Source of the DNA: Flavobacteriaceae bacterium
Lineage (GTDB): Bacteria > Bacteroidota > Bacteroidia > Flavobacteriales > Flavobacteriaceae
Assembly (NCBI GenBank): GCA_024643385.1
Contig: JAHEMZ010000015.1
Location: 1-52,027 of the forward strand
Length of the DNA: 52,027 bases
Direction of reading: 5' to 3'
This document shows positions 5,147 through 52,027 of the stretch, in pieces (the stretch's first letter is position 1; the number at the start of each line of letters is the position of its first letter). A program made the translations under genes and the position numbers. The notes beneath the pieces were generated by a model, which saw only the letters and a program-made list of their open reading frames with translations, searched no databases and had not been told where the DNA came from.

Positions 5147-5167
5147 CTTTTTTAAGAGGAATTATCT

Positions 5168-5211: not shown

Positions 5212-5215
5212 CAAT

Positions 5216-5572
5216 ATGAAATTCAATTTTCCGAAGGAGGAGAAATTAAAAAGTCAGAGGCTTATTGAGCAATTAATTGCCGAAGGAAGGACGTTGAAAA
5301 CATTTCCAATTAAGGTTATCTATTTGAGTGATGCGTCTCTCGAATGTCATCAAATAGCCTGTTCCGTTCCTAAGCGAAATTTTAAATTGGCGGTTAGGAG
5401 AAATCGTATCAAAAGACAAATGAAAGAATCTTATCGCCTTCATAAACATCTGTTAACAAACAATAACGGCAAGAATTTTGCGATACTATTTGTGTACATT
5501 GGTAAAGAAAAACCACTTTACGATCAAATAGATAGTGCAATTCAGTCCTCACTTAAACAGTTAGCCCTATGA
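5216..5572 (+). CDS. rnpA: ribonuclease P protein component
   Basis: This 118-residue basic protein carries the RNR signature of RNase P protein, RRNRIKRQMKE, at residues 61-71, preceded by the conserved CSVPKRNFKLAV strand. It binds the catalytic RNA subunit and helps it remove the 5' leaders of pre-tRNAs. Length is normal for the family. Unlike in many bacteria, rpmH is not upstream; a protease operon with its own terminator is. The stop overlaps the next start by 4 bases (ATGA), linking rnpA to the DUF4349 lipoprotein. Confidence 0.95.
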   Translation: MKFNFPKEEKLKSQRLIEQLIAEGRTLKTFPIKVIYLSDASLECHQIACSVPKRNFKLAVRRNRIKRQMKESYRLHKHLLTNNNGKNFAILFVYIGKEKPLYDQIDSAIQSSLKQLAL

Positions 5573-6402
5573 AACTTTTTAGTCTTTTTCTTTTTGGTCT
5601 TGCCTTAGCGTGTGGTGGTGGTGGGAATAATGATTACGACCGTTCTAATGGGGAATCTTCAATGGCGGCAGATTATGAATATGTGGAAGAAGCTACATCA
5701 GCCTTAAAAGTTATTGAAGAAACTTCTGAAGAAATAGTGGAAACACAAGAGCAGAAAATTATTAAGTCCGCTCAACTTCGGTTTGAAGCGTCAAACCCGG
5801 AGGAAACACATGAAAATATTCTTCGACTTACGCTGGAATACAAAGGATTTATTCAAAGTGATAACGCAGGTAAAAATTACAATCAGTTATACCGTACTAT
5901 GATTGTACGTGTGCCTACAGAAAATTTTCAGCCCTTCATCGATGCTATTTCAGCAGGGGTTCCTTATTTCGACCAAAAAGATATTTCCCGTCAGGATGTT
6001 TCCGAAGAATTTGTAGACCTAGAAGCTCGTTTAAAAGCCAAAAGAGAATTAGAGGCCCGCTATTTAGAATTACTAAAACAAGCTAAAAATGTGAAGGAGA
6101 TGCTCGAAATTGAGCGTGAACTTTCTAACATTCGAGAAGAAATCGAAGCCAAACAAGGACGATTAAACTACCTAGAAAATAAGGTTTCCCTGAGTACCGT
6201 AAATATTGAATTTTATAAACAAACTGCAGAAACCGGTGTCACACTTTCCTATGGAAAAAAAATTGTGAATGCCTTAAAGGGTGGTTGGGATGGTATTTCG
6301 GTGTTTTTCTTAGGATTACTCTATTTATGGCCATTGTTTGTCATTGGACTTATAATTATCTTGGTGCTTCGAAGATATCTTAAAAGAAGTAAGAAAATAT
6401 AA
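5569..6402 (+). CDS. DUF4349-domain lipoprotein
   Basis: The 277-residue product begins with a lipoprotein signal (lipobox LALAC, Cys15), followed by a Gly/Asn/Asp linker. The central DUF4349 region (about 60-215) contains IKSAQLRFEA and a long charged coiled coil with EIERELSNIREEIEAKQGRL. One membrane segment near the C-terminus (about 243-267) is followed by a basic tail. The topology suggests an envelope protein anchored at both ends. The family is widespread but its function is unknown to me. It overlaps rnpA by 4 bases and is followed after 59 bases by the S41 protease. Confidence 0.85.
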   Translation: MKLFSLFLFGLALACGGGGNNDYDRSNGESSMAADYEYVEEATSALKVIEETSEEIVETQEQKIIKSAQLRFEASNPEETHENILRLTLEYKGFIQSDNAGKNYNQLYRTMIVRVPTENFQPFIDAISAGVPYFDQKDISRQDVSEEFVDLEARLKAKRELEARYLELLKQAKNVKEMLEIERELSNIREEIEAKQGRLNYLENKVSLSTVNIEFYKQTAETGVTLSYGKKIVNALKGGWDGISVFFLGLLYLWPLFVIGLIIILVLRRYLKRSKKI

Positions 6403-6461
6403 TCGATTGCGAAGGGAAATCGTCCGTACGGATGTAGAATTTTTGAATTAATAAAGAACTC

Positions 6462-36177: not shown

Positions 36178-37044
36178 ATGGAGAAAAAGGAAAAAAGAGG
36201 AAAAATATTAAGGAAAAAGCTTCTGCATAAGTATCGTTTAGTGGTACTGAACGAAGAAACTTTTGAGGAACGGTTTTCATTTAAGTTAAACCGCCTGAAT
36301 GTATTTGTATTTAGCACACTGTCTGCCCTGGTTTTAATATCGGTCACAACTTTCCTTATTGCTTTTACACCTTTGCGTGAGTACATCCCGGGGTACTCAT
36401 CCACTGCTCTTAAGAAGAGAGCGACAACACTCGCTTATCAAACAGATTCCCTTCAACAAAAAATAATTGCTAATGAGCAATACCTGGCCTCTATAAAAAT
36501 GGTACTTACCGGGGATGTGAAATCGGAAAATCTGAACAGGGATTCTATTTTTGAGGCCGTTCAAAGAGAGATCGACGAAGGTCAATTTATACCCGCAAAG
36601 GAGGATTCTTTATTACGAGAGAAAGTGCAACAAGAAGATAAATATAATCCTCTTACGGAAAATCCGGTTGTAAATTTCGTATTATTCCCTCCTGCTACCG
36701 GAAGTATATCGGAAGATTATAACCCTGAAGAAAAACATTTTGCCGTCGATATAGTTACCGTAAAAAATAGCCCCGTGAAAGCAACCGCCGACGGCACCGT
36801 CATTTTTGCAGAATGGACGGCAGAAACGGGCTATGTCATAATTATCAAGCATAACTTCAACTTAATTTCGGTTTATAAACACAACTCCTCATTGATCAAA
36901 CAACAGGGAGATTTGGTAAAAGCGGGGGAAGTGATTGCGAACTCAGGAAATACCGGAGAACTGACCACAGGCCCACATTTACACTTTGAACTGTGGAGCG
37001 ACGGCTATCCTATTAACCCAAGAAACTTTATCGATTTTAACTAA
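36178..37044 (+). CDS. M23 (LytM) family peptidase, membrane-anchored
   Basis: The 288-residue protein has a basic N-terminus, one membrane helix (about 40-62), a coiled-coil linker and a C-terminal LytM domain. All zinc and catalytic residues are present: H187 and D191 in HFAVD, and H267/H269 in PHLHFE. It should act in the periplasm on peptidoglycan cross-links or regulate division. A GH3-like gene starts one base after its stop, so they are co-transcribed. Confidence 0.92.
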   Translation: MEKKEKRGKILRKKLLHKYRLVVLNEETFEERFSFKLNRLNVFVFSTLSALVLISVTTFLIAFTPLREYIPGYSSTALKKRATTLAYQTDSLQQKIIANEQYLASIKMVLTGDVKSENLNRDSIFEAVQREIDEGQFIPAKEDSLLREKVQQEDKYNPLTENPVVNFVLFPPATGSISEDYNPEEKHFAVDIVTVKNSPVKATADGTVIFAEWTAETGYVIIIKHNFNLISVYKHNSSLIKQQGDLVKAGEVIANSGNTGELTTGPHLHFELWSDGYPINPRNFIDFN

Positions 37045-37045
37045 G

Positions 37046-38542
37046 ATGACACTAAAAGCCTTCGGAGCCAAAATCTTTGCTAAAACCATCGTTCAACAAA
37101 TCTCCTCCTGGGCTTCCAAACCAATAGAAACACAAGAGAAGGTCTTTCACCAACTTATTGCAAAAGGAAAATACACTCGGTTTGGGAAGGATCACAATTT
37201 CGGTGAAATTAGAACTCATGAAGATTTCATCACTCGTGTTCCGATAAGAGATTATGAGGATTTACGCAATTATGTAGACCTGATGGTGGAGGGAAAACCG
37301 GATATTTTGTGGCCGGGAAAACCTCTTTATTTCGCAAAAACATCCGGAACTACTTCGGGAGCAAAGTATATTCCCATTACTTCCGAATCCATGCCGCATC
37401 ATATTCGCGCGGCCCGCAATGCAATTTTATGTTATATACATGAAACCGGGAACACTCGAATTGTGGATGGAAAAATGATTTTTTTACAAGGGAGTCCGTT
37501 GCTACAAGAAAAAAACGGAATTAAATTAGGTAGACTCTCCGGAATTGTGGCGCATTATGTGCCAAAATATCTACAAAAAAACAGAATGCCTACTTGGGAA
37601 ACCAATTGTATTGAAGATTGGGAAGAAAAAGTAGAAGCGATCGTTTCAGAAACACAACACGAAGATATGTCCATTATTAGTGGAATACCTTCTTGGGTGC
37701 AAATGTATTTCGAAAGACTTCGTGTTAGAACAGGATTGAAGGTTGGGGACCTCTTTCCAAATTTTGAATTGTTTATCTACGGCGGTGTGAATTACGAACC
37801 TTATCGTAAGAAGTTTGAAAATCTAATTGGTAAAAAGGTGGATAGCATTGAATTATTTCCGGCGTCGGAAGGGTTTTTTGCGTTTCAAAATGAACAAAAT
37901 GATCCAGGATTATTACTTCAACTAAACGCCGGTATTTTTTATGAATTTGTCGAGGCAGACTCTTTCTTTTCAGACCACGCTGAACGAATCACACTTAAGG
38001 AAGTCAAGATTGGGGTAAATTATGTAATGATCATCTCTACGAATGCTGGTCTATGGGCCTATAATCTGGGAGATACGGTTCAATTTACTTCAACCAAGCC
38101 TTATAAAATTGTTGTTTCAGGCCGCATCAAGCATTTTATATCTGCCTTCGGAGAGCATGTTATCGGAAAAGAAGTGGAACAAGCAATGCAAAAAGCATCT
38201 GAAAAATTCGGCTTTTCTATTACAGAATTTACGGTTGCTCCACAAACGGAAACCTCAAAAGGCGAGCTGCCCTATCACGAATGGTTAATCGAATTTGAGA
38301 ACACCCCTGAAAACCTTTCTGCCATAGCTGAAGCAATAGATAAATCACTTCAAAAGCAGAATAGTTATTACCTCGATCTAATTGAAGGGAAAGTTCTTCG
38401 CAAGTTAAAAATCACCCCATTAAAAAAGGACACTTTTAACGATTACATGAAACTACAAGGAAAGCTGGGCGGCCAAAACAAGGTTCCCAGACTCTCCAAT
38501 GACAGAAAAATCGCGGACGAACTCATCAAGTTACAACTTTAA
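37046..38542 (+). CDS. GH3-like acyl-adenylating enzyme
   Basis: The 498-residue cytoplasmic protein belongs to the GH3 auxin-responsive family. An ATP/AMP-binding loop FAKTSGTTSGAKYIP lies around residues 97-110, LFPASEGFFAFQ in the middle, and ISAFGEHVIGKEVEQA in the C-terminal domain. Plant GH3 enzymes conjugate carboxylic acids to amino acids via an acyl-AMP intermediate; the role of bacterial members is unclear. The start at 37046 is chosen because the longer frame (36986) lies inside the M23 gene. A phosphorylase-like gene follows 23 bases after the stop but has its own -7 box. Confidence 0.9.
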   Translation: MTLKAFGAKIFAKTIVQQISSWASKPIETQEKVFHQLIAKGKYTRFGKDHNFGEIRTHEDFITRVPIRDYEDLRNYVDLMVEGKPDILWPGKPLYFAKTSGTTSGAKYIPITSESMPHHIRAARNAILCYIHETGNTRIVDGKMIFLQGSPLLQEKNGIKLGRLSGIVAHYVPKYLQKNRMPTWETNCIEDWEEKVEAIVSETQHEDMSIISGIPSWVQMYFERLRVRTGLKVGDLFPNFELFIYGGVNYEPYRKKFENLIGKKVDSIELFPASEGFFAFQNEQNDPGLLLQLNAGIFYEFVEADSFFSDHAERITLKEVKIGVNYVMIISTNAGLWAYNLGDTVQFTSTKPYKIVVSGRIKHFISAFGEHVIGKEVEQAMQKASEKFGFSITEFTVAPQTETSKGELPYHEWLIEFENTPENLSAIAEAIDKSLQKQNSYYLDLIEGKVLRKLKITPLKKDTFNDYMKLQGKLGGQNKVPRLSNDRKIADELIKLQL

Positions 38543-38565: not shown

Positions 38566-40230
38566 ATGAATACTTCACAAGTACATAAAAGAACAAGAGC
38601 GCAAGAAAGTTCAGGAGCCATTGAACGTATTTATATTACCATGCGTCACCTTTTCAATAGAGGATTCTATAAACCCATGGGGGTGAGTGGTGAATCTTTA
38701 AGAGAGTCGCTATTTATTTTGCGACCTGAGATTTATGGTTCCATCTCGGAGGAGAAAATTGAATTGCAAGGTCTTTTGTACGTAATAGATCGATTACCTT
38801 ACGGAATTGAAGAGTGCCGATTTATTAATCTTACCAGTGATGAAGGCTATAATAAATCACATTTTAAACCCATTATACCTCCTAAGAGACGAAGAAACTG
38901 TTACCGTATTGATACGGAACAGATGAATATTGAAATTACCCGAGGGCGGAGCGAAATTTATGACATTCTTACCCATCTTACCTTTCTTTATATTGAATCC
39001 CACAAGATCATGAAACAAGTCTTGATCAATGATGAAGGGGAATTGATCAGGGATTGGGAAAAACTGGAAGAAGCAGTGCTCTATAAAAAGGAATTATCTC
39101 AAAAGGATAAAGAGATCGCCTTAACGCACACAGCTAATTTTTTGGGAAGAACCTTCGAGGAAGTTAGCGAAATTTACCCTGAATTTTCTTATCATGAAGA
39201 TGAGCATCGTTTTCTAAAGATCATTTACTACTTAGGACGCGGAGCAATCGATGAAGTGCTGGAGAAAAAGCAAAGGCTCATAACCTTTAGCCCCGTTTTG
39301 CGCGAAAGGTTGGGACACCATATCCATGGCGAAAGATGGGCCACCCGAATTAAGAAGGAAATACACGATAGAAATTGGATGCAGCGTCCATTACATATTG
39401 TGAGCGCTAACATGCACAGCATCATGAATTCGTTGTATGCAGAACGTGTTTTGGTGGCGGAAAGTAAAGGAAAGACCCAATTTGAATTATTTGAAGCCTT
39501 GAGCAAATCAGAAAATTCAAAGTTGCGGGAAAAAGTTGAAAAATATGCCCTTGAGCATGGGATGGTCTATCTGCCGGATGAAAGCGGGACCAATATAGAT
39601 GTGCAATTATTTGACACTGAAAAACTATCCATGGGGCATGAATATCCTGAAGGTGAATCTCCATTATTGTTAGTGATGGATTATGCTTTCGGAGAACAGG
39701 CCTATGAAACCATGGATGAGCTTCTGAAGCCTTATTCAGGAAATCGCAAAAAAGAATTCATGAATGTTGCATCGATATCTATCATGGGTAAAGCCGGAAT
39801 TCTTGACGGAGGGAAAGGAGATATAATGATCCCAAAATCTCATATATTTGAGGGAACAGCGGATAATTATCCTTTTAAGAACAAAATAAAGAAAAGTCAT
39901 TTTTCGGAAGACCTAAACGTATATACCGGGGCAATGATCACTGTTTTGGGAACTTCCTTGCAGAACAAGGATATTTTGACCTTTTTCCATGATTCATCCT
40001 GGGATGTAATTGGTTTGGAAATGGAAGGAGCCCATTATCAGAAGGCGATTCAATCCGCCTCAAAAATACGTGGCAGCATCAATGCAAATGTGGAAGTTCG
40101 CTACGCCTACTATGCGTCCGATAACCCACTGGAAACAGGAAGCACCCTTGCATCAGGAGGTTTAGGAACAACAGGGGTGAAACCCACGTATTTGATTACT
40201 CAAAAAATTCTGGAACAGATTCTAAAATAA
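38566..40230 (+). CDS. DUF6909-like protein with nucleoside-phosphorylase-like C-terminal half
   Basis: This 554-residue soluble protein has a mostly helical N-terminal half (about 1-290) that I do not recognise. The C-terminal half resembles the PNP/UDP-phosphorylase/nucleosidase fold: GKAGILDGGKGDIMIP (408-423) matches the usual AG...GDIVIP strand-turn, and EMEG (485-488) matches the substrate-binding MEG motif. From memory I place it in DUF6909, a Flavobacteriia family; unverified. It may bind or cleave a nucleoside-like molecule. It follows the GH3-like gene and precedes rfbB by 3 bases. Confidence 0.7.
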   Translation: MNTSQVHKRTRAQESSGAIERIYITMRHLFNRGFYKPMGVSGESLRESLFILRPEIYGSISEEKIELQGLLYVIDRLPYGIEECRFINLTSDEGYNKSHFKPIIPPKRRRNCYRIDTEQMNIEITRGRSEIYDILTHLTFLYIESHKIMKQVLINDEGELIRDWEKLEEAVLYKKELSQKDKEIALTHTANFLGRTFEEVSEIYPEFSYHEDEHRFLKIIYYLGRGAIDEVLEKKQRLITFSPVLRERLGHHIHGERWATRIKKEIHDRNWMQRPLHIVSANMHSIMNSLYAERVLVAESKGKTQFELFEALSKSENSKLREKVEKYALEHGMVYLPDESGTNIDVQLFDTEKLSMGHEYPEGESPLLLVMDYAFGEQAYETMDELLKPYSGNRKKEFMNVASISIMGKAGILDGGKGDIMIPKSHIFEGTADNYPFKNKIKKSHFSEDLNVYTGAMITVLGTSLQNKDILTFFHDSSWDVIGLEMEGAHYQKAIQSASKIRGSINANVEVRYAYYASDNPLETGSTLASGGLGTTGVKPTYLITQKILEQILK

Positions 40231-40233
40231 AAT

Positions 40234-41253
40234 ATGTTAAAAAAAGGGAAAGTATTGGTGACCGGTGGAGCCGGCTTTATTGGATCGAATTATGTAATAT
40301 ATCTACTGGAGAACTTTAACGATTCGATCGTGGTACTTGATAAATTGACCTATGCCGGGGATATCCGAAATTTGAAAACCGTTGAAAATCACCCAAACTA
40401 TCAATTTATAAAAGGCGACATTTGTGATGCTCCATTCTTAGATCAACTTTTTAAAGAACATCAATTTGATCGTATTGTTCATTTTGCTGCTGAGTCTCAT
40501 GTTGACAATTCCATTAGTGGTCCCGGGGCGTTCATAGAAACGAATATCGTTGGGACATTCCAACTCCTACAGGCGGCGTATACCTTATGGATGAATGGTC
40601 CGAATCAATTGAAGGACAACTTCCGGCACGCCCGTTTTTTACATGTATCCACTGATGAAGTATATGGAACCTTAGGCGCAACCGGTTTGTTTACAGAGGA
40701 AACACCTTACGCGCCAAACAGTCCGTATAGTGCTTCCAAAGCTTCTTCCGATATGATCGTACGAAGTTATTTTCACACCTACGGTCTTCCGGTTGTTACC
40801 ACCAATTGCTCCAATAACTATGGCCCGCATCAGCATAAAGAAAAACTCATCCCGACCATTATTAGAAAGGCGTTGACAGGGGGATCGATTCCTATTTATG
40901 GAGATGGCCAGAATGTTCGTGATTGGCTTTATGTGATTGACCATTGTTCGGGAATAAAATTAGTATTGGATAAGGGGCGACAGGGAGAAACGTATAATAT
41001 TGGCGGGCGAAACGAAAGGAAAAACCTTTATATTGCACAAACGATATGTGAATTATTGGATGATTTAAAACCTAAATCCAACTCATATAAGGATCAGATT
41101 ACCTTTGTTTCTGATCGTCCGGGACACGATTTCAGGTATGCGATAGATGCTTCCAAATTGGAAGAGGAATTAGGATGGAAGGCTAAAGAGACCTTTGAAA
41201 CAGGGATCTTAAAAACCATTAAATGGTATTTAGAAAATAGTGATCGATGGTAA
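40234..41253 (+). CDS. rfbB: dTDP-glucose 4,6-dehydratase
   Basis: This 339-residue extended short-chain dehydrogenase has an NAD-binding GGAGFIGSNY (G11, G14, G17). Catalytic residues are in STDEVYG (D141, E142) and YSASK (Y165, K169). It converts dTDP-glucose to dTDP-4-keto-6-deoxyglucose, the second step of dTDP-L-rhamnose synthesis. It opens the polysaccharide locus, only 3 bases after the preceding gene, so it may also be read from that gene's promoter. Confidence 0.97.
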   Translation: MLKKGKVLVTGGAGFIGSNYVIYLLENFNDSIVVLDKLTYAGDIRNLKTVENHPNYQFIKGDICDAPFLDQLFKEHQFDRIVHFAAESHVDNSISGPGAFIETNIVGTFQLLQAAYTLWMNGPNQLKDNFRHARFLHVSTDEVYGTLGATGLFTEETPYAPNSPYSASKASSDMIVRSYFHTYGLPVVTTNCSNNYGPHQHKEKLIPTIIRKALTGGSIPIYGDGQNVRDWLYVIDHCSGIKLVLDKGRQGETYNIGGRNERKNLYIAQTICELLDDLKPKSNSYKDQITFVSDRPGHDFRYAIDASKLEEELGWKAKETFETGILKTIKWYLENSDRW

Positions 41254-41322: not shown

Positions 41323-42180
41323 ATGAAAGGAATCATTTTAGCGGGAGGATCCGGAACCAGATTACACCCCTTGACCTTGGCGGTGAGCAAACAACTGATG
41401 CCGGTATACGATAAACCCATGATTTATTATCCACTTTCTACGTTGATGTACGCCGGGATTCGTGAAATTTTAATTATTTCCACCCCTGAAGACCTTCCTT
41501 TATTTGAAAAACTCTTGGGTGATGGAAAGAAATTTGGATGTAAATTTTCTTATGCCGTTCAAGAACATCCCAACGGATTGGCTGAAGCCTTTATCATTGG
41601 TAAAGAATTTATCGGTTTGGATAAAGTGGCCTTAATTTTAGGCGATAATATATTTTATGGATCTGGGTTAAAGGAATTATTGCAACGAAATAATAATCCG
41701 GAAGGTGGAATTATTTACGCCTATCATGTGCACGACCCTGAAAGATACGGAGTAGTTGAATTTGATAAATCCGGTAATGCGTTATCAATAGAGGAAAAGC
41801 CCGTATCTCCAAAATCTAATTATGCTGTGCCCGGCATCTATTTTTATGATAATCAAGTGGTCGAAATAGCTCATAATATTAAACCCAGCCATAGAGGGGA
41901 ACTCGAAATTACGGAAGTAAATAATGTGTACCTCAAAATGGGAAAATTGAGTGTAAGCAAATTAGACAAAGGGACCGCTTGGTTGGATACCGGAACTTTT
42001 GCGTCCCTTATGCAGGCATCTCAATTTGTGGAGGTAATTGAAGAACGGCAAGGATTGAAAATAGGCGCCATTGAAGAAGCAGCCTATGAAATGGGTTACA
42101 TCAACCGAACACAATTAAGAGCCTTGGCTGAACCCCTCTTGAAAAGTGGGTATGGCAAACATTTGATGCAACTAGACTAG
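41323..42180 (+). CDS. rfbA: glucose-1-phosphate thymidylyltransferase
   Basis: The 285-residue nucleotidyltransferase has the pyrophosphorylase signature [11 protein letters not shown] (8-18), then [19 protein letters not shown] and LGDNIFYG. It couples dTTP with glucose-1-phosphate to give dTDP-glucose. It follows rfbB after 69 bases with no terminator and precedes rfbC by 3 bases. Confidence 0.97.
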
Positions 42181-42183
42181 ACA

Positions 42184-42729
42184 ATGGAAATCGTAAAATC
42201 ACCGCTACAAGACTGTTTTTATATAAAGCCGGCCATTTTTAAAGATGAGCGCGGCGTTTTTTCTGAAACGTATAATGAAGAAACCTTTAAAAGGGTGACT
42301 GGATTGGACGTTAATTTTGTACAGGACAATCAATCTCAGTCCTCCTATGGGGTTTTACGCGGACTCCATTTTCAAACAGGAGCTATGGCGCAGGCCAAGT
42401 TGGTGCGTGTAGCGATGGGAAAGGTATTGGATATTGTTGTGGATCTGAGAAACAATTCGAGCACCTTTGGAAAGCATTTTTCCATTGAACTCACCGGAGA
42501 TAACGGGTATCAGCTATTTGTTCCTAAAGGATTTGCGCACGGGTTTATTACCTTATCTGAAAAGTCTATCTTTTGTTATAAATGCGATAACTATTATCAC
42601 AAGGCTTCGGAAGGCGGAATCATCTACAATGACGCAACCCTGAACCTAAATTGGCATCTTCCCCACAATGAATTAATCGTTTCGGAAAAGGACCTTCAGC
42701 TTCCGACCTTTAGAGCGCTTACCTTATGA
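42184..42729 (+). CDS. rfbC: dTDP-4-dehydrorhamnose 3,5-epimerase
   Basis: This 181-residue cupin-fold epimerase has the catalytic His in RGLHFQ (H62), then AKLVRVAMGKVLDIVVDLR and FVPKGFAHGF. It epimerises C3 and C5 of dTDP-4-keto-6-deoxyglucose. It overlaps rfbD by 4 bases (ATGA) and completes the pathway with it. Confidence 0.96.
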   Translation: MEIVKSPLQDCFYIKPAIFKDERGVFSETYNEETFKRVTGLDVNFVQDNQSQSSYGVLRGLHFQTGAMAQAKLVRVAMGKVLDIVVDLRNNSSTFGKHFSIELTGDNGYQLFVPKGFAHGFITLSEKSIFCYKCDNYYHKASEGGIIYNDATLNLNWHLPHNELIVSEKDLQLPTFRALTL

Positions 42730-43580
42730 AAAATATTTTGGTGACCGGAGCCAACGGACAATTAGGGAAATGCCTGTTGGATCTCAGTCGAAATATTTCT
42801 ACGACCCACTTTGTCTTTACCGACAGAGCGCTACTCGATCTCGGAAATCCGGGAAGTATTGAAGCCTTTTTTTTGAGAGAACACTTTGATTATTGCATCA
42901 ATGCAGGAGCTTACACAAATGTGGAAAGGGCTGAAAGTGAACCAGAGCAGGCATATCAGATCAATGCGGAAGGTGTAAGATGTCTGGCAGAACAATGTGT
43001 ACTTCATGAAACGGTTTTAATTCATATCTCCACAGACTATGTTTTTGACGGTTTAAAAACTAGCCCGTATGAGGAAACGGATACCGTAGGTCCTTTGAAC
43101 GTTTATGGCGCCAGCAAACTGAAAGGAGAAGAATATATTCGAACTATTTGTAAAAAGCATTTTATCTTAAGGACTTCTTGGCTTTATTCACAATACGGGC
43201 ATAATTTCCTGCGATCGATATTGAAGTTCGCCGATGAAAAAAAAGACCTGCGAATTACAACGGAGCAAATAGGAACGCCCACCAATGCAAATGATCTGGC
43301 GGGTGCAATCCTTCAAATTATCCTTGCCGACAGCCGAAAGTTTGGTTTATATCATTTCAGTAACGACGGAAAGGCTACCTGGTATGATTTTGCCAAAGAA
43401 ATTTTAAGTCAAACACAACGATTGGAAGAGGTTAAACTTGCGGAAACAGACTATTATCCTACTTTTGCAAAGAGACCGCCATATAGCGTGTTGAGCAAGA
43501 ACAAGTTTTCAAGAAGTTTTGATTATCCAATAGTGCCTTGGGAAAAGGCATTGACAACTGTAATTAAAAAACTTAATTAG
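42726..43580 (+). CDS. rfbD: dTDP-4-dehydrorhamnose reductase
   Basis: The 284-residue reductase has an NADPH-binding GANGQLGK (7-14) and the short-chain dehydrogenase pair Y127/K131 in YGASK. The C-terminal substrate lobe includes RTSWLYS. It makes dTDP-L-rhamnose, the activated sugar for the glycosyltransferases downstream. All four rhamnose genes are present in the order B-A-C-D. A Wzz-like gene starts 7 bases later. Confidence 0.96.
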   Translation: MKNILVTGANGQLGKCLLDLSRNISTTHFVFTDRALLDLGNPGSIEAFFLREHFDYCINAGAYTNVERAESEPEQAYQINAEGVRCLAEQCVLHETVLIHISTDYVFDGLKTSPYEETDTVGPLNVYGASKLKGEEYIRTICKKHFILRTSWLYSQYGHNFLRSILKFADEKKDLRITTEQIGTPTNANDLAGAILQIILADSRKFGLYHFSNDGKATWYDFAKEILSQTQRLEEVKLAETDYYPTFAKRPPYSVLSKNKFSRSFDYPIVPWEKALTTVIKKLN

Positions 43581-43587
43581 TTTTAGA

Positions 43588-44571
43588 ATGGAAAAACACA
43601 AAGAAGAAATCGACATTTTTTACCTCTATAATGTATTGGTAGACCGCTTTAAAAAATTCACAAAGTTTGGATTTAATATCCTCCATTTTGTCAAGAAAAG
43701 TTGGATTATCATACTGGTCTTAATTTTGGCAGGCGTAGGGTACGGATATTACATCTTTTCCGAGGCAGGTATTGGAAAGGAATCAAAAATTTTGGTGCGA
43801 ATTAATTTTGATGCTGTAAACTATGTTTATAGTAAAGTACATTTTCTCAATGCGAAAATCGGAGAGAAAGAGGAAGGAAAGTTCAAGGATGAAAGTGTGC
43901 CGAAGGCTTTAGCAAAATTAACAGATATTTCGATCGAGCCCGTAATTAACCTTAACGACATCATCGAGGATGTTGAGCCTAACGAACCTACGGTAGATGG
44001 ATTGCTTCGCTATTTGGAATTTGAATTCGACGAAGATGGAGAAGTTACCAGTATCGCAGACACCTTTAAAAGTGAATATAATTACCACTATATAGAATTA
44101 CACACCAATAGTTTTGCTCAATCTGATATCATCGATAAACTATTGGCCTTTTTAAATGATAATGAGCAATTACAGGAATTTAAAAACGTCTATATACAAA
44201 ACTTAAAAGATGCTATTCACAAGGACAGAAAAACGATAGAACAGATCGACGAGGTGATTTCCATCTATAATGAGGGGGGGTCGCTTCCTTCACCGCGAAG
44301 TGAAATATTTGTAGTAGATAAAAACTTCAATATTGCGCAACTTTTGACTAACAAAGTTGATTTAGAAAAGGAGATTGAATTGTACAAGAAACAACTAGTC
44401 AATTCAAAGGACCTAGTTATGAACATCAATCAACCCTCACTTTATGTAGGTGAAAGATCTCTTTTAGACAATAAGATGGTATATTATCCGGTGCTTTTTG
44501 TCGCAATTTTCTTTTTATTGGCAGGAATCCGAGGATTGTATTTTTCATTAAAACGATTTGCAGAAAATTAG
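43588..44571 (+). CDS. Wzz-like chain-length determinant protein
   Basis: The 327-residue protein has two membrane helices, about 38-58 and 298-320, bracketing a large periplasmic domain rich in acidic residues and predicted helices (KDAIHKDRKTIEQIDEVISIY). This topology is that of Wzz/polysaccharide co-polymerases, which set the length of O-antigen or capsule chains. No tyrosine-kinase domain is attached, so it is the short type. The N-terminal cytoplasmic part is about 37 residues. Similarity is by topology and context only. Confidence 0.78.
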   Translation: MEKHKEEIDIFYLYNVLVDRFKKFTKFGFNILHFVKKSWIIILVLILAGVGYGYYIFSEAGIGKESKILVRINFDAVNYVYSKVHFLNAKIGEKEEGKFKDESVPKALAKLTDISIEPVINLNDIIEDVEPNEPTVDGLLRYLEFEFDEDGEVTSIADTFKSEYNYHYIELHTNSFAQSDIIDKLLAFLNDNEQLQEFKNVYIQNLKDAIHKDRKTIEQIDEVISIYNEGGSLPSPRSEIFVVDKNFNIAQLLTNKVDLEKEIELYKKQLVNSKDLVMNINQPSLYVGERSLLDNKMVYYPVLFVAIFFLLAGIRGLYFSLKRFAEN

Positions 44572-44619
44572 TCGGTTTGTTCTTACAATAAGAACATTGC
44601 ACGATTGAATTGTTGTGGT

Positions 44620-45930
44620 ATGGGGATTCTAAAAAAGCTTACTACTTTTTACAAACTATCCATTGTTGGTAAGAGTATTAACGTTCTTATTTTAAGAATG
44701 CTTGGTGTGCTCCTTTTTTTTTTAACAACTCTTTTTATTACAAACAGTTTTACCCCAAGCATAGTGGGGATGTACGATTTTAGTCGATCCCTCCTCATTT
44801 TTCTGGGAACTATAGCTGTGTTCGGCATGCAGCAGTCTGTGATCTATTACTCGGGATATTTGGCCTCTCAAAACAATTTGGGCTATATTAAAAACATCTA
44901 TCTAAAAATGGTTGCAATCGTTTTTTTCATTGCTGTTTTAATGAATATAGGGTTGTATATTATTTCTTCGGAATTATTGCAAGGATGGATCTCTATTCCT
45001 ATCGATGCGATCACCGAAAAGACCTTTCCGGCCATTTTTTTCTATGGAGTGACCATGCTGAATATTGACGCTTTTCGTGCTATTGATAAAATATACCTCT
45101 CAGAAGTATTTCGAAATATACTTAGGTATTTGTTCTTTTTCTTGGCGACGATGTTTCTCTTTTATTCAGAAAATTCAGATTGGCTTATTGAAGCTTTCCT
45201 TTTAAATTTTGTATTACTGGCCGTGATATCTACTTTTTTTCTATTCAGAAATTTCCACACACAATTTGAGAAGAAGGAATTTTTAGGGGAACAAATGACG
45301 TTTAAGGCTATAGTAAGGCGATCGGCACCGATGGCCATCAGTGCAGCTTCCTTTTTGTTGATGCAAAGCCTGGACGTTTTTATGCTTACGCGACTTACGG
45401 ATTATGAGACGGTGGCCTATTATAGCGTAGCCATTAAACTTACCTTGTTGGTTTCCATCGTGCTTTCTTCTGTGAATGCGGTGATTGCACCTCAAATAGC
45501 TGAAGATTTTGCCGGACAAAAAATGCAATTGTTGAAAACCAAAATAAAAAGGAGCACCCGATTGATCCTCCTTATTACCTTACCGATCATTATTTTTTTA
45601 GGGTTGTTTGCAATGCTGATTCTTAGTTTTTTCGGCGAAGGATATCAGGTGGCTTATAATTCGTTACTGATACTATTGGGCGGACAGGTGATAAATGCTT
45701 TTTGCGGATCGATTGGGGTTTATCTCAATATGACCGGAAAACAGAAGGTTTTTCAATTTATTCTTTTGTCTGCATTAGCCATCAATGTGTTACTTAATTA
45801 TATTTTAATACCGCTTTACGGAATGAATGGGGCAGCCATAGCGACGTCAACAAGTATGATCATTTGGAACCTTTCGGCGGTGATTTATATATATCGCAAA
45901 GATGGAGTTCAAACCTTTTATGGAATTTGA
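44620..45930 (+). CDS. polysaccharide flippase (Wzx/MATE-like)
   Basis: This 436-residue protein has about 12-14 hydrophobic helices and few charged loops, as in oligosaccharide flippases. It contains a lipid-facing pattern with SMIIWNLSAVIYIYRKDG at the C-terminus. The ATG at 44620 (MGILKKLTTFYK) is chosen over a TTG at 44605. It probably moves lipid-linked repeat units across the inner membrane. The next gene's ATG uses the last base of its TGA stop. Confidence 0.85.
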   Translation: MGILKKLTTFYKLSIVGKSINVLILRMLGVLLFFLTTLFITNSFTPSIVGMYDFSRSLLIFLGTIAVFGMQQSVIYYSGYLASQNNLGYIKNIYLKMVAIVFFIAVLMNIGLYIISSELLQGWISIPIDAITEKTFPAIFFYGVTMLNIDAFRAIDKIYLSEVFRNILRYLFFFLATMFLFYSENSDWLIEAFLLNFVLLAVISTFFLFRNFHTQFEKKEFLGEQMTFKAIVRRSAPMAISAASFLLMQSLDVFMLTRLTDYETVAYYSVAIKLTLLVSIVLSSVNAVIAPQIAEDFAGQKMQLLKTKIKRSTRLILLITLPIIIFLGLFAMLILSFFGEGYQVAYNSLLILLGGQVINAFCGSIGVYLNMTGKQKVFQFILLSALAINVLLNYILIPLYGMNGAAIATSTSMIIWNLSAVIYIYRKDGVQTFYGI

Positions 45931-46835
45931 TGAAGGATTTTAAAGTAGATTTTTTTGTTGTGGGTGCCGCCAGAAGCGGAACCACCTCCCTATACAATTA
46001 TCTGAAGCAACATCCCAATATATATCTGCCCAATATTAAAGAGTTAAATTATTTTTCAAAGGTAGAATCCAACCAACGGCAGGACTATGACACACCAAAG
46101 AAAGAAATCCATTATCATACTAAAATAATTAAGTCGCCTGAAGTCTATCAAAACCTTTTTAAGGACGCGAATGAACAACAATTAAAAGGGGATATAAGTC
46201 CGTCGTATTTATGGGATACGTCCACCGCTGAACGAATCTTCGAACACAACCCCAAGGCTAAAATAATCGTCTCTCTTCGCAATCCCGTCGAACGGGCATT
46301 CAGTCATTATTTGATGAATATTAGTGTGGGATACGACGCGGAACCATCCTTTGAAAAGGCAATTCAAGCCGAGGAAAATAGGATATGGGGCGGTGGAAAT
46401 TTGTATCTGGAATGGAGTCGTTATTATGAAAGCCTGAAATCCTATTACGATCTATTTCCAAAAGAGCAAATAAAAGTGCTCATTTTTGAGGATTGGACCT
46501 CAAATAAACAAGAAACTTTGCAAGGTTTGTTCACATTTTTGAATCTGACCCAAATTAAGACGATCGATCATACGGATCTATTCAATCAGAAAACGGGATA
46601 CAAGAATATCAAGACACTTAACTTTTTTCGAAATAAACTGAAAGGAAATTGGGTAGATGCGTTATTGCCTCAGCGTTTAAAAGATCGATTAAAGGACCTG
46701 TTATTCCAAAAGCATGTTGTAAAAACCAAACTTGACCCTGAATGGAACGGGCGGCTAAAAGCTCAATTTAAGGAAGAAGTTCAACGATTGGAAGAATTGA
46801 CCAACTTACCTCTTTTAAAGAGATGGGGCTATTAA
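45930..46835 (+). CDS. sulfotransferase domain protein (PAPS-dependent)
   Basis: The 301-residue soluble protein has the 5'-phosphosulfate-binding loop VVGAARSGTTSLYNYL (about 10-25) and the 3'-phosphate motif SLRNPVERAFSHY, with R117 and S125. These are the two signatures of PAPS sulfotransferases. It probably adds sulfate to a sugar hydroxyl of the glycan or its precursor. It lies between the flippase and a second, unrelated sulfotransferase gene. The start at 45930 overlaps the flippase stop; the longer upstream frame is inside that gene. Confidence 0.9.
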   Translation: MKDFKVDFFVVGAARSGTTSLYNYLKQHPNIYLPNIKELNYFSKVESNQRQDYDTPKKEIHYHTKIIKSPEVYQNLFKDANEQQLKGDISPSYLWDTSTAERIFEHNPKAKIIVSLRNPVERAFSHYLMNISVGYDAEPSFEKAIQAEENRIWGGGNLYLEWSRYYESLKSYYDLFPKEQIKVLIFEDWTSNKQETLQGLFTFLNLTQIKTIDHTDLFNQKTGYKNIKTLNFFRNKLKGNWVDALLPQRLKDRLKDLLFQKHVVKTKLDPEWNGRLKAQFKEEVQRLEELTNLPLLKRWGY

Positions 46836-46850
46836 CTTAAGTAATGAAAC

Positions 46851-47540
46851 ATGATTAGCCATTTAGATAAAGTTGTTTTTGTACATGTGCCAAAAGTAGC
46901 CGGTCAAAGCATTGAACAGATGTTTTTAAAACGACAAGGATTGGATTGGGAAAGCAGAGATAGTTTGTTGCTCCGAAAAAAACTTCCCCACGAAAAAGGC
47001 CCTGAACGATTGGCTCACCTTACGGCGGAGCAATATGTGGATCTAGGGTATTTAGAAAAAGAAAGATTTGATGATTATTTTAAATTTTCATTTGTGCGTA
47101 ATCCCTATAAAAGAGTCTTTTCTTTTTATAATTTTTTAGGATATTCAAGAATAATCAGCTTACGAACTTTTATTAAAGTTGTATTGCCCAAAAAACTAAA
47201 GGAAAGGGATTTCTTTTTCCTTTCCCAATACGATTATCTTTTTGATCATGAAGGCAAATTACTGGTAGATTTTGTGGGACGGCTTGAGAACATAAAAGAG
47301 GATATTCGAGAGGTAATTAATCGAATGGGCTGGGAACCGACCTCCTTACCGCATGTAAATAAATCAAAAGGAGAATGGCGCCGAGCCCTTCGAATTTTAT
47401 GGAATAACCCTACATTAGTAGCACGATTGAAGTTTAGCAATGATCGAAAATCATTTGAAGAACAATTCGATCAAGAACTGAGAAATCTGGTTTCAGAGCT
47501 GTATGAGAAGGATTTTGAAGCATTTGATTATACAAAATAA
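46851..47540 (+). CDS. sulfotransferase family 2 protein
   Basis: This 229-residue protein opens with FVHVPKVAGQSIEQMF (PAPS 5'-binding, about 10-25) and has FSFVRNPYKRVFSFYNF (3'-binding, R83/N84/P85, S91). It matches the carbohydrate sulfotransferase (Sulfotransfer_2) type rather than the first sulfotransferase. It is short for the family but both motifs are intact. Together with the upstream gene it makes two independent sulfation activities in one polysaccharide locus. Confidence 0.85.
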   Translation: MISHLDKVVFVHVPKVAGQSIEQMFLKRQGLDWESRDSLLLRKKLPHEKGPERLAHLTAEQYVDLGYLEKERFDDYFKFSFVRNPYKRVFSFYNFLGYSRIISLRTFIKVVLPKKLKERDFFFLSQYDYLFDHEGKLLVDFVGRLENIKEDIREVINRMGWEPTSLPHVNKSKGEWRRALRILWNNPTLVARLKFSNDRKSFEEQFDQELRNLVSELYEKDFEAFDYTK

Positions 47541-47552: not shown

Positions 47553-48785
47553 ATGGGCCAAAGGCTAACGAAAATATCACTGGCACTAATCGTTCTTTCA
47601 CTGTGGAGTGAAAGTTTGGAGATATCATTTATGGTAGCTGCCATTGTATTGTTGCTGAGTTTCCGGGCAAAGTTGTCAAGAGGGATGTTTTCAATGGTGA
47701 TTTTTATGTTGTTGCTTATCTCCATAGGGATGATGGGAATTTTCAAGCTTCAATCAGGGGCTTACGATTTTATTAAGGATCTGATCTATTTCTTGCGTCC
47801 GCTGACAGTGATGCTAGCAACCTATTTCTGCGTGCGAAAACTGGATCGGAAAGCAGATTTTTTTAACATCATCGTGCTATGTGGCTTTGGATTAGCATTG
47901 ATACACTTACTTCATATTGGATCGCAAATACTATTTATCAAACCAAGCTTGGATAAATTCAGAGGCTTATTCGGCAGGTTGAATCATGTCGAGATGATCG
48001 CCCTGTTTGTAGTGATGTGTGTAAAAGATTTGCCTGTCAAAAAAACAAGATTTAAAGCGGTTTATCAGTTTTTAGTCGTATGCCTTATTGTATCCTTTTT
48101 GCTCTATTTTTCCAGAACCATGATGATGGTATTCGTGCTTATGGTATTGGCCTATTTTGGATACTTGAAGTTAAATGCACGGGGAGCTATGGCTTTTGGG
48201 ATACTATTTATCTTGTCCGGGGCATTTGTCCTCTTTCTGGCAAATTATGACCCTTCCAAAGAGAGGGATCCGGGAATTACAACCCGATTCCTAGAAAAAA
48301 TGAAGAATTCCTACACAGAGGCTTTTGAACCAATCGAATTCGATCCTTATAAGCAGGATCGAAGAGAACTATGGCCGCGATGGAGAGCCTTTGAGGCCAA
48401 CCTTGTGCTGACACAGGTTGATAAGGAAAGGAAATGGATCCTAGGAAAGGGTTTTGGCTCCACGGTGGACGTTGGTTTTGAAATTAAACTGGATGGAGAG
48501 GACATACAGTACTTGCCTACCGTGCATAACGGAATGTCTTACGTCTATATGAAAACCGGACTTTTAGGAATTTTAGTCTACCTGATTATTATTGGAACAT
48601 TATATCGTTACTATTATAAAGAAGAAGAAGAACACCCGGGAACGGTCAATTATAACAGGATGTTGACCGCCATTGCATTTTATATGTTTACGGCGAGTAT
48701 GGTTGTTACCGGTATATTTAAACCCTATGAAATGGTAACCTTCCTTATAGGAGGTGTTTTTGCTTTAAAACAATTTGACAGGTGA
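47553..48785 (+). CDS. O-antigen ligase/polymerase-like membrane protein (first of two)
   Basis: The 410-residue protein has about 10-12 hydrophobic helices and a large loop (about 245-310) with DPYKQDRRELWPRW and LPTVHNGMSYVYMKTGLLG. The HNGxxxxxxxxG pattern near residue 335 is the Wzy_C signature. It could be a Wzy polymerase or a WaaL-type ligase. The stop overlaps the following glycosyltransferase start by 4 bases (GTGA). Confidence 0.75.
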   Translation: MGQRLTKISLALIVLSLWSESLEISFMVAAIVLLLSFRAKLSRGMFSMVIFMLLLISIGMMGIFKLQSGAYDFIKDLIYFLRPLTVMLATYFCVRKLDRKADFFNIIVLCGFGLALIHLLHIGSQILFIKPSLDKFRGLFGRLNHVEMIALFVVMCVKDLPVKKTRFKAVYQFLVVCLIVSFLLYFSRTMMMVFVLMVLAYFGYLKLNARGAMAFGILFILSGAFVLFLANYDPSKERDPGITTRFLEKMKNSYTEAFEPIEFDPYKQDRRELWPRWRAFEANLVLTQVDKERKWILGKGFGSTVDVGFEIKLDGEDIQYLPTVHNGMSYVYMKTGLLGILVYLIIIGTLYRYYYKEEEEHPGTVNYNRMLTAIAFYMFTASMVVTGIFKPYEMVTFLIGGVFALKQFDR

Positions 48786-49885
48786 GGATCGGAATTTTAG
48801 GCACTAGAGGTATACCTAACTACCATGGCGGATTTGAACAATTCGCCGAATTTTTTGCAACCTTTCTGGCCGAGAAGGGACATCAGGTATTTGTTTATTC
48901 TTCGTCCAGTCATCCTTATAAGGAACCAACTTTCAATGGCGCTACGATCATACATTGTAAAGATCCCGAAGACAACATAGGCACCGCCGGACAATTCCTC
49001 TATGATCTCAATTGTATCCTCGACGCCAGAAAGCGAAAATTTGACATATTGCTTCAGTTGGGATATACCAGTAATTCGGTCTGGTATTTTTTACTTCCGT
49101 CAAAATCCATCGTTATTACCAATATGGACGGATTGGAGTGGAAACGTTCCAAGTATAATAAATGGGTTAGGAAGTTTCTCAAAGTGGCAGAGTCCTTGGC
49201 CGTTAAGAGCAGTGATTACCTCATTGCTGATTCCATCGGTATTCAGAATTATTTGAAGGCAACCTACCAGAAGCCTTCGGAATATATTGCTTACGGTGCG
49301 GAATTATTCGACCGGCCTGAACAGGATATTTTGAATAATTATGGTGTGAAGGAAAATAAGTATAATCTCCTCATTGCTCGAATGGAACCGGAGAACAATA
49401 TTGAAACGATCCTAGATGGCGCTGTGGCAGCTGGGGAAAAAATACCCTTTCTGATCATTGGCAAACACGATGTCAATGCATTTGGAGCCTATTTGAAAGA
49501 TAAATACAAGGATCACCCCTATATCAAGTTCATTGGAGGAGTATATAATATGGATCACTTGAACAATCTCCGCTTTTTCTCCCGTTTATATTTTCATGGA
49601 CACAGTGTTGGAGGTACAAATCCCTCACTCCTGGAGGCGATGGCAAGTAACGCATTGATTATTGCTCACCGAAACGAATTCAATGGTCATATTTTGAAAG
49701 AGGACGCCTTTTATTTTGAAACGGCTAAGGAAGTGGCGGAATATATCGACGGTGTCAAGGATAAATCTCAATTCCGGGATTTGTTAGAGAATAATAAACG
49801 CAAAATAGAACAGTTATTCTCATGGGAATTGATCAACCAGCAATATTTAGACTTTTTCAAAAGGGTTCATGAAAAATCTCATTAA
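48782..49885 (+). CDS. glycosyltransferase, GT4-like with DUF1972 N-terminal domain
   Basis: The 367-residue enzyme uses a GTG start inside the preceding stop. The N-terminal MRIGILGTRGIPNYHGGFEQ is the mark of DUF1972/RgpA-type rhamnosyltransferases. The C-terminal GT-B domain has ARMEPENNIETILDG and HGHSVGGTNPSLLEAM. With dTDP-rhamnose made upstream, a rhamnosyltransferase role is reasonable but inferred. It overlaps the next gene by 17 bases. Confidence 0.85.
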   Translation: MRIGILGTRGIPNYHGGFEQFAEFFATFLAEKGHQVFVYSSSSHPYKEPTFNGATIIHCKDPEDNIGTAGQFLYDLNCILDARKRKFDILLQLGYTSNSVWYFLLPSKSIVITNMDGLEWKRSKYNKWVRKFLKVAESLAVKSSDYLIADSIGIQNYLKATYQKPSEYIAYGAELFDRPEQDILNNYGVKENKYNLLIARMEPENNIETILDGAVAAGEKIPFLIIGKHDVNAFGAYLKDKYKDHPYIKFIGGVYNMDHLNNLRFFSRLYFHGHSVGGTNPSLLEAMASNALIIAHRNEFNGHILKEDAFYFETAKEVAEYIDGVKDKSQFRDLLENNKRKIEQLFSWELINQQYLDFFKRVHEKSH

Positions 49886-51095
49886 GATAACGCTATCAGA
49901 AAACACTTATGGGTTTCTCATCGGAGCTCTTTTGGTGAGTATTCCTTTGCGCTATGCCTATAGTTCCGTTCTTCTAATCATCCTGTTGGCAGTTGCATTG
50001 CTTTCCAGTTTTTATCATAAAAAGGAGATGCATAAAGGATACTTGGTCTCTTGGGCACTTTTTTTCTTGATGGTCCTTTCCTTACTATGGACTGAAAATT
50101 TTGGAAAGTCTTTGCGAGGATTGGAACGCCAATTGCCTTTTTTAATAATTCCCCTGGCATTTTGGTTGATGCCGAAATTATCGAAATCTGTTTTACATAG
50201 CTCCCTCTTTATTTTCTCGGCAGGATTATCCGTTCTCGCTTTAGCATCGGTCATAATTGCCACCGTTTCCTATGGGACCTCAGGTAATTTGGATGTATTC
50301 TTTTATCACGATTTACTGCTGTTTCTCGACTTGAACGCGATCTATATTTCGGTCATGGTGTCATTGAGCCTACTCTATATGTTATTTTACCGGAAGCGCA
50401 CCATTTGGAATAACGTTATAGGCGCCACCTTACTTATCTTTCTTGTTTTGCTCTCTTCAAAGAACATCATTATCGTAACGGTTATAGCAGGGTTTGTTGG
50501 GTTTTTGATCTCCCGTAGGCTCACACGTAAAAAATGGGCAATTTTAGCCTTAATAGGAGCCGTATTATTTACCATCTTGTACTATAGTCCGCTTAAAGAA
50601 AGATGGAACACAGAATTTTCAACGGATATATCCGATACTTTGACCTGCGATGGATTTTCGGCGGTATACCCATGGACGGGCACGACCTTTCGCTTATTTC
50701 AAACAAGGATATTCTATGAATCCTTCCAAGAGAACGAAGTTTGGTTCACAGGATTTGGGATCAATGCTGCTCAGGATCGGATTGCGGAAAAACAAAAGGA
50801 ATATTTTCTTTATTATGGGTATAATCAATATAATTATCACAACCAATATGTTCAGGCCTTTGCCGAATTAGGGCTACTTGGTTTTGTCTTGATAATATTG
50901 TTTTTTTTGATGCTCGCAAGAAGTTATTTGCAACATAAGGAATTGATGATCCTCTTTTTTATATTGATCATGGCCTCGGTATTTCTTACGGAGACCTACA
51001 TATGGCGGCAGCGCGGCATGATTCATTTTTTAACGCTATATTGTTTATTGATTCATTTATTTCCCACGGATAAAATCATTTCGAAAGTCACATGA
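49869..51095 (+). CDS. O-antigen ligase/polymerase-like membrane protein (second)
   Basis: This 408-residue polytopic protein has about 11 membrane helices and a large periplasmic loop (about 245-320). The Wzy_C motif NYHNQYVQAFAELGLLG begins at 322 (H324). It differs from the first copy, so one may polymerise and the other may ligate the chain to its acceptor. The stop overlaps the next start by 4 bases (ATGA). Confidence 0.85.
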   Translation: MKNLIKITLSENTYGFLIGALLVSIPLRYAYSSVLLIILLAVALLSSFYHKKEMHKGYLVSWALFFLMVLSLLWTENFGKSLRGLERQLPFLIIPLAFWLMPKLSKSVLHSSLFIFSAGLSVLALASVIIATVSYGTSGNLDVFFYHDLLLFLDLNAIYISVMVSLSLLYMLFYRKRTIWNNVIGATLLIFLVLLSSKNIIIVTVIAGFVGFLISRRLTRKKWAILALIGAVLFTILYYSPLKERWNTEFSTDISDTLTCDGFSAVYPWTGTTFRLFQTRIFYESFQENEVWFTGFGINAAQDRIAEKQKEYFLYYGYNQYNYHNQYVQAFAELGLLGFVLIILFFLMLARSYLQHKELMILFFILIMASVFLTETYIWRQRGMIHFLTLYCLLIHLFPTDKIISKVT

Positions 51096-52027
51096 GAATA
51101 TTGGTAGATGCACATGTATTTGATGAAAAATTTCAGGGCTCCAGGACCTATCTCAAAGGAATTTATATTGAATTGTTTCGGCTAAGACCCACGTGGCATT
51201 TTCTTATGGTTGCGCATGATATTGATTCTTTAAAGGATCAATTTGGAACCCCGCAAAACGTTTCTTTTATTCGGCTGAAAAGCCAAAATAAATTTTGGCG
51301 ACTGCTTTACGAGCTGCCGGCGATTATTCGAAAACACAAAGCGGATTACGCTCACTTTCAATATATCGCTCCTTTATTCAAAACGTGTAAATATATCGTC
51401 ACCACTCACGATATTCTTTTTGAAGAACCGGAGTTCAAAAGATATTTTCCGCTTAAATATAGACTCTTGAACGGACTTCTATTTAAAAGATCTACAAAGA
51501 AGGCCGATGTGGTCATAACGGTTTCCGAGTACTCCAAAAATAAGATCGCGGAGCACTACCGAATGGATCCATTTAAAATCCACGTCACTCCAAACGCAAT
51601 TGAAATTCCGCCGGCCAACTTGGTAAAGAGCAATTATATCAGGGAAAATTACGGCTGCGATCGGTATTTACTTTACGTTAGCCGCATTGAGCCGCGGAAG
51701 AATCATCTAGCCTTGTTAAAGGCCTATATCCACCTCAAACTCTACGAGCGAAATTACCAACTTGTCTTTATTGGAGCAAAAGATCTAGATTATCCCGAAA
51801 TGGATGAATATCTGGCGCATCATCAAGATTTGTTTGCGGACAGGGTTTATAACTACGCAAATATTACTCCGGAAATTCTACAGCATTTTTACGTGAACGC
51901 AGAGTGCTTTATCTATCCTTCTTTAGCTGAAGGTTTTGGAATACCTCCTCTCGAGGCGGCGATATGCGACCAACGCGTAATATGTTCTTCGGCTACTGCA
52001 ATGAAGGAGTTTTCCTTTTTTAAATAC
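51092..52027 (+). CDS. glycosyltransferase family 4 protein, 3' end cut by window
   Basis: The first 312 residues are present. The protein opens MRILVDAHVFDEKFQGSRTY, then HDILFEEPEFKRYFPLKYR, and the GT-B nucleotide-sugar domain with SRIEPRKNHLALLKAY and YPSLAEGFGIPPLEAA (catalytic EX7E region). It should transfer a sugar, donor unknown, to the growing repeat unit in the cytoplasm. The reading frame is open to the last base of the window. It overlaps the upstream gene by 4 bases and continues the same operon. Confidence 0.9.
   Translation, partial: MRILVDAHVFDEKFQGSRTYLKGIYIELFRLRPTWHFLMVAHDIDSLKDQFGTPQNVSFIRLKSQNKFWRLLYELPAIIRKHKADYAHFQYIAPLFKTCKYIVTTHDILFEEPEFKRYFPLKYRLLNGLLFKRSTKKADVVITVSEYSKNKIAEHYRMDPFKIHVTPNAIEIPPANLVKSNYIRENYGCDRYLLYVSRIEPRKNHLALLKAYIHLKLYERNYQLVFIGAKDLDYPEMDEYLAHHQDLFADRVYNYANITPEILQHFYVNAECFIYPSLAEGFGIPPLEAAICDQRVICSSATAMKEFSFFKY

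Follow-up and report, generated by a model that had tools for sequence, protein, structure and literature searches.

Two adjacent sulfotransferase genes of different families in a conserved polysaccharide locus of a Flavobacteriaceae bacterium

The stretch of DNA analysed here (the window) is the 52,027-nucleotide contig JAHEMZ010000015.1 (C126) of the Flavobacteriaceae bacterium assembly GCA_024643385.1. It carries, on the forward strand, two adjacent genes for predicted sulfotransferases, designated ST1 and ST2. The ST1 gene begins with the ATG at position 45930 and ends with the stop codon at 46835 (301 amino acids), and the ST2 gene occupies positions 46851–47540 (229 amino acids). Both open reading frames (ORFs) are intact and tightly packed: the stop codon of the preceding flippase gene overlaps with the start of ST1 (TGATG), and the gap between ST1 and ST2 is 15 bases. 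The Pfam scan gave ST1 70.1 bits with PF13469 (cut-off 27) and 54.9 bits with PF00685 (cut-off 22), and ST2 78 bits with PF03567 (cut-off 22). An earlier note on this DNA had described two neighbouring sulfotransferases with distinct signatures (ARSGTT/SLRNPVERA versus VPKVAGQS/FVRNPYKRV); the motifs are indeed present, and the two proteins fall into separate Pfam families, both above the cut-off. Neither protein has a hydrophobic (membrane) segment.

The residues of the predicted binding site for 3'-phosphoadenosine 5'-phosphosulfate (PAPS), on which the earlier note had made its claim depend, are kept in all eight orthologs of each enzyme. These are G12, R15, T18, T19, K37, E38, R117, and S125 in ST1, and P14, K15, S20, R83, and S91 in ST2, where H56 is kept as well. 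The same five ST2 site residues are found in 36/36 sequences of the wider ST2 alignment (A4), and in the ST1 alignment (A3) K37 is present in 18 and E38 in 17 of the 18 sequences. The roles assigned to these residues (5'-phosphosulfate loop and 3'-phosphate site in ST1, PK...S and R...S in ST2) are our assumption, and we likewise take the Glu of the KE motif of ST1 to be catalytic.

The predicted structure of ST1 (mean predicted local distance difference test score, pLDDT, 81.8; weak stretch 237–243) matched best the solved structure 3rnl (Z 28.4, root-mean-square deviation (rmsd) 2.6, 239 residues aligned). Among solved proteins, this Alicyclobacillus sulfotransferase, whose title names no substrate, is also the one most closely related to ST1 (E 5.5e-36). 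Next to it stood the sulfotransferase domain of NDST (Z 24.6, rmsd 2.4, 235 aligned) and 3-O-sulfotransferase-3 (Z 24.1, rmsd 2.7, 226 aligned), followed at a distance by a protein-tyrosine sulfotransferase (Z 14.6, rmsd 3.7, 199 aligned) and the cytosolic sulfotransferases (Z 14.0 and below). With a Z of 14.6 against about 24 for the carbohydrate enzymes, the model disfavours ST1 as a protein-tyrosine sulfotransferase. The ST2 model is more confident (mean pLDDT 95.1) and its matches are modest, namely HS6ST (Z 10.3, rmsd 3.8, 177 aligned), HS2ST (Z 9.9, rmsd 3.8, 175 aligned), and, almost level with them, StaL (Z 9.5, rmsd 3.8, 183 aligned) and others. As judged from the models, heparan-sulfate sulfotransferases are the likely fold relatives, clearly so for ST1 (3-O-sulfotransferase/NDST-like) and weakly for ST2 (6-O-/2-O-like).

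The pair is embedded in a block of polysaccharide genes, all on the forward strand. The four genes for dTDP-rhamnose supply all score above the equivalog cut-offs: rmlB, dTDP-glucose 4,6-dehydratase (40234–41253; TIGR01181, 479.3 bits, cut-off 365.1), rmlA, glucose-1-phosphate thymidylyltransferase (41323–42180; TIGR01207, 463.5 bits, cut-off 360.65), rmlC, dTDP-4-dehydrorhamnose 3,5-epimerase (42184–42729; TIGR01221, 220.7 bits, cut-off 155.75), and rmlD, dTDP-4-dehydrorhamnose reductase (42726–43580; TIGR01214, 283.7 bits, cut-off 224.05). They are followed by a gene for a protein matching no Pfam family, labelled as a Wzz-like chain-length protein from its position and its two hydrophobic segments (43588–44571), and by the Wzx flippase gene (44605–45930), above the cut-offs for both PF01554 (MatE, 46.6 bits) and PF01943 (Polysacc_synt, 33.4 bits). 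Downstream of ST2 lie the gene for a Wzy-like polymerase or ligase (wzy1, 47553–48785), with 9 strongly hydrophobic segments and a PF04932 (Wzy_C) score of 26.9 bits, just below the cut-off of 31.7; a GT4 glycosyltransferase gene, Cps2T-like rhamnosyltransferase (gtRha, 48782–49885; PF09314, 84.7 bits; NF046071, 215.4 bits, below its cut-off of 500); a second Wzy-like polymerase or ligase gene (wzy2, 49869–51095; PF04932, 55.9 bits, cut-off 31.7); and another GT4 glycosyltransferase gene (gt4, 51092–52027), truncated by the end of the contig. The placement of the pair between flippase and polymerase, the polysaccharide context, and the rhamnose supply, all proposed earlier, agree with these assignments. 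No cys genes were seen among the window ORFs, and no ABC exporter was recognised among them by eye, Wzx and Wzy-like genes being present instead. Upstream of rmlB, the genes at 36986–38542 and 38566–40230 are presumably GH3-like and AMP-nucleosidase-like, labels given by eye; the former also lies upstream of the block in four related loci (L040, L041, L043, and L044).

Related loci were sought by scanning a one-genome-per-species collection with the ST2 alignment, and the best 80 of at least 80 were considered. Seven of them (L039–L045) reach about 50% identity or higher in ST2; being mutually related, these do not count as independent cases. The order wzx-ST1-ST2-wzy1-gtRha-wzy2 is held in all seven at ST2 identities of 50–71%, and because of this we regard the ordered block as not a product of chance. 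Three of the seven carry an additional gene between ST2 and wzy1 (L043, 10680–11855; L044, 10665–11855; L045, 10680–11864), identified as a GT4 glycosyltransferase in the two subjected to the Pfam scan, L043 and L045; on account of this gene, the repeat unit probably differs in L043–L045. The rmlBACD genes lie upstream in L040, L041, L043, and L044, other genes take their place in L045, and the stretches of L039 and L042 do not extend far enough for a verdict. The Wzz-like protein is conserved in L039–L041, L043, and L044. By coordinates, an ST1-like ORF stands directly beside ST2 in 11 of the best 80 loci, a search made by phmmer with ST1 alone, which misses distant homologs. Besides the seven loci, four of the 80 have tandem pairs of both families, again by coordinates: L073, L077, L088, and L094. 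In two of these, L088 and L094, from the unrelated Nitrosomonas, the ST2-like and ST1-like genes stand in reversed order, so pairs of these families turn up repeatedly.

In one of the seven loci, that of Aureisphaera galaxeae (L041), gt4 is followed by genes for a Wzy_C protein (wzy3), a UDP-glucose dehydrogenase-type enzyme (ugd), an epimerase/dehydratase, and a WcaJ-type priming enzyme (match of 405.2, just below the cut-off of 410.75). Since wzy3, ugd, the epimerase gene, and wcaJ begin contig C6 of the window's genome in the identical order, the locus probably continues there, and the UDP-glucose dehydrogenase-type gene suggests a uronic acid in the glycan.

The earlier note had proposed looking for cysDNC as the source of PAPS. 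The genome does contain these genes, on contig C104, in the order cysQ-DUF2061-cysC-cysD-cysN, where the DUF2061 label of the second gene is our assumption. CysQ, CysC (match 4.4e-69), CysD, and CysN all exceed the NCBIfam cut-offs. The operon closes a polysaccharide locus other than that of the window (the second locus), which also comprises a flippase gene, glycosyltransferase genes, a third sulfotransferase gene, and an FkbM-type methyltransferase gene; Wza-like and Wzc-like genes lie farther off. Because the operon adjoins this other glycan locus, the presence of PAPS genes is not enough to link sulfation to the window locus. Taken by itself, the second locus (L003, 3800–11903, and L037) is arguably a stronger candidate for a sulfated glycan than the window locus. 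A fourth, weak PF13469 match lies on contig C48 (L127, 4856–5617) among glycosyltransferase and other glycan genes, near what we take to be an AlgI-like membrane acyltransferase gene.

A CysH-like protein, above the Pfam cut-off and below the NCBIfam cut-offs, is encoded at L036 7893–8525 (contig C56), without cysD or cysN there and beside genes that are presumably homocysteine-methyltransferase-like. The genome, which is 94% complete, yielded no sulfite reductase domain. Sulfate assimilation looks incomplete, as the CysH-like gene has no neighbouring cysD/cysN and this domain was not found.

The distribution of cysC was examined in 60 relatives, the window's genome included, counting only matches with E < 1e-40 and dropping weaker ones. 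Of these genomes, 17 have PF03567 and 26 have PF13469; 28 have at least one of the two, and 27 carry a full-length cysC. Sulfotransferase genes were present in 24 of the 27 genomes with cysC versus 4 of the 33 others (Fisher p 1.5e-9), and within the family in 17/19 versus 1/18, both comparisons being uncorrected for kinship. The rule is not strict: three genomes have cysC and no detected sulfotransferase gene, and four show the reverse. For 14 of the 27 genomes with cysC, the distance from this gene to the nearest sulfotransferase match is no more than 20 kb. Meanwhile, cysC and sulfite reductase showed no association in the same set (p 0.79). An assimilatory role of the PAPS operon is weakened by this result and by the lack of a detected sulfite reductase domain in the window's genome, while the CysH-like protein keeps it from being discarded.

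Among the searched genomes carrying the locus, five of six have a full-length cysC. The five-gene order cysQ-DUF2061-cysC-cysD-cysN is kept in all five cysC neighbourhoods examined; in one of them (L128), two ORFs of ~300 and ~510 amino acids are inserted between cysD and cysN. A homolog of the third sulfotransferase lies near cysC in three of the five, the remaining two being covered only within the examined stretch. L128 also has its FkbM-type gene broken into two ORFs (2376–3208 and 4457–6767, coordinates that take in this gene and the insert).

Taken together, we consider it probable, at roughly 0.75, that the block directs the synthesis of a Wzx/Wzy-type surface polysaccharide containing rhamnose and probably a uronic acid, and that ST1 and ST2 each sulfate its lipid-linked repeat unit in the cytoplasm. 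According to this scheme, the WcaJ-type priming enzyme encoded on C6 and the GT4 enzymes would put together a short, lipid-carried repeat unit in the cytoplasm, its sugars including rhamnose and probably a uronic acid. ST1 and ST2, as soluble PAPS-dependent enzymes, would each add one sulfate, Wzx would then flip the sulfated unit, and Wzy would polymerise it. PAPS would be supplied by the cysDNC operon on C104, and the by-product 3'-phosphoadenosine 5'-phosphate would be cleared by CysQ. PAPS is cytoplasmic and neither ST1 nor ST2 has a membrane segment; hence, sulfation most likely takes place on the lipid-linked unit before flipping. This timing agrees with the Wzx/Wzy scheme that PMC8205485 describes in general terms for synechan.

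Several points weigh against this reading. Sulfate in the glycan is a prediction from the genes, and sulfation at two positions is suggested solely by the presence of two enzymes. The modelled fold of ST2 matches several small-molecule sulfotransferases almost as well as its best hit (Z ~10), and its alignment profile (A4) returned chance-level matches only among the PDB sequences, ferritins included, with HS2ST and HS6ST absent there. The PAPS operon adjoins a different polysaccharide locus that has its own sulfotransferase, the CysH-like protein means that PAPS may have another use, and one locus-bearing genome (L042, G063) gave only a short cysC match. As for its class, the product may be an exopolysaccharide, a capsule, or an O-antigen: an O-antigen would fit the ligase-like Wzy_C proteins and a block in which no Wza or Wzc was recognised, but Wza/Wzc-like genes are present elsewhere in the genome, on C104 and C75.

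These points leave room for other explanations. Only one of the enzymes might act on the window glycan, the other sulfating a protein, a glycolipid, or the C104 glycan, or being dispensable. The second locus of the genome, which would make at least one further glycan and has a sulfotransferase gene of its own, offers such a target, and PMC8205485 describes an xssE mutant of the synechan producer that was barely affected, bloom formation and the amount of exopolysaccharide not being substantially changed. However, ST1 and ST2 are adjacent within the block in all seven loci, their active-site residues are kept in every ortholog, and the fold of ST1 is far nearer to carbohydrate than to protein-tyrosine sulfotransferases, which makes this explanation unlikely. 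It is also rather improbable, in our estimate, that ST1 and ST2 work in an obligatory sequence, with the product of one being required by the other, so that the loss of one would abolish both sulfates and the two would not be independent modifications. Heparan sulfate biosynthesis commonly shows such order dependence, and the tandem pairs of both families in four further loci would suit it. Finally, the proteins might have the sulfotransferase fold without sulfating a polysaccharide, being inactive or using another donor. Their activity is a prediction, and at position 15 of ST1 an R takes the place of the K found in the more distant A3 relatives; nevertheless, R15 is fixed in 8/8 orthologs, the other PAPS-site residues are kept, and cysC co-occurs with sulfotransferase genes in the relatives, so we hold this to be very improbable.

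A bolder and tentative proposal can be made, which we regard as possible though doubtful: a lineage of Flavobacteriaceae would make a conserved heparan-sulfate-like surface glycan with a backbone of uronic acid and rhamnose, doubly sulfated by enzymes resembling the animal 3-O/N- and 2-O/6-O-sulfotransferases, with PAPS used mainly for sulfation and not for assimilation. Were this true, Bacteroidota would not only break down sulfated polysaccharides, as they are commonly portrayed, but also make them. Irrespective of this proposal, the conserved two-sulfotransferase block and the PAPS operon tracking sulfotransferase genes suggest that Flavobacteriaceae produce sulfated glycans. Aureisphaera galaxeae is a named, cultured carrier that allows tests, and bacterial enzymes of the ST1 and ST2 types might serve for sulfating polysaccharides.

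For comparison with known systems, we rely on the available parts of the cited articles. Sulfated polysaccharides of bacteria are stated there to be exclusive to cyanobacteria (PMC8205485; repeated in PMC13390465), and in a mat survey the Bacteroidetes genomes yielded no sulfotransferase (PMC9723792). Sulfated exopolymers, together with a gene cluster that includes a sulfotransferase, are described for Pontiella of the Verrucomicrobiota (PMC7356697). The rarity of sulfated bacterial surface polysaccharides asserted in the earlier note holds less well than its account of the genes: rhamnose-containing cases with their clusters have been published (PMC8205485, PMC11641403), and, as given above, 28 of the 60 relatives have sulfotransferase genes. 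None of the open-licence papers listed in searches on flavobacterial and Bacteroidetes sulfotransferases (20 of 105 in one of them), judged by title and the start of the abstract, described a flavobacterial gene cluster for a sulfated polysaccharide.

One close likeness is to the xss cluster of Synechocystis PCC 6803, which is also of the Wzx/Wzy type, has two sulfotransferases of distinct subfamilies, and yields synechan, a product with rhamnose and sulfate (Rha:Man:Gal:Glc:sulfate 1:1:1:5:2; PMC8205485). A comparable gene set is complete here, with a flippase, polymerase, chain-length protein, glycosyltransferases, and two sulfotransferases, the priming enzyme on C6 being linked only through the gene order of relatives. 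The differences are that XssA and XssE both belong to PF13469/PF00685 (XssA also reaching 22.2 bits with PF03567, cut-off 22), whereas ST2 is clearly a PF03567 protein; that ST1 is only 23–24% identical to XssA and XssE; and that the two xss sulfotransferase genes are non-adjacent (L126, pSYSM) and come from a different phylum. A tblastn search of plasmids for XssA/XssE, made with two queries, did not show pSYSM among the matches listed (25 of 66 and 30 of 214 records). The wps-1 cluster of Actinoplanes missouriensis is likewise of the Wzx/Wzy type and encodes two sulfotransferases from separate families, one termed heparan-sulfate-type, but it serves the sporangium matrix of an actinomycete, and its sulfate is also only predicted (PMC13390465). 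The capsule of Vibrio sp. KMM 8419, a chemically proven sulfated rhamnose polymer, shares rml genes, cysC/cysN/cysD, and sulfotransferases, while differing in its ABC-transporter export and in PAPS genes within the cluster (PMC11641403); in the window's genome the latter lie on C104 beside another locus. Cobetia marina KMM 1449 has a sulfated capsule and a cluster with dTDP-Rha, PAPS (including cysQ), and sulfotransferase genes, but it is again of the ABC-transporter type and from a different phylum (PMC11766843). In the window locus, neither the in-cluster PAPS genes nor the ABC export of these two clusters was recognised, and the C104 locus holds both PAPS genes and a sulfotransferase gene. 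Wzx/Wzy clusters that encode two sulfotransferases of distinct subfamilies have precedents, as does a sulfated rhamnose polymer with PAPS genes; what is new is the conserved Bacteroidota block with its PF13469–PF03567 tandem and the genome-level link to PAPS.

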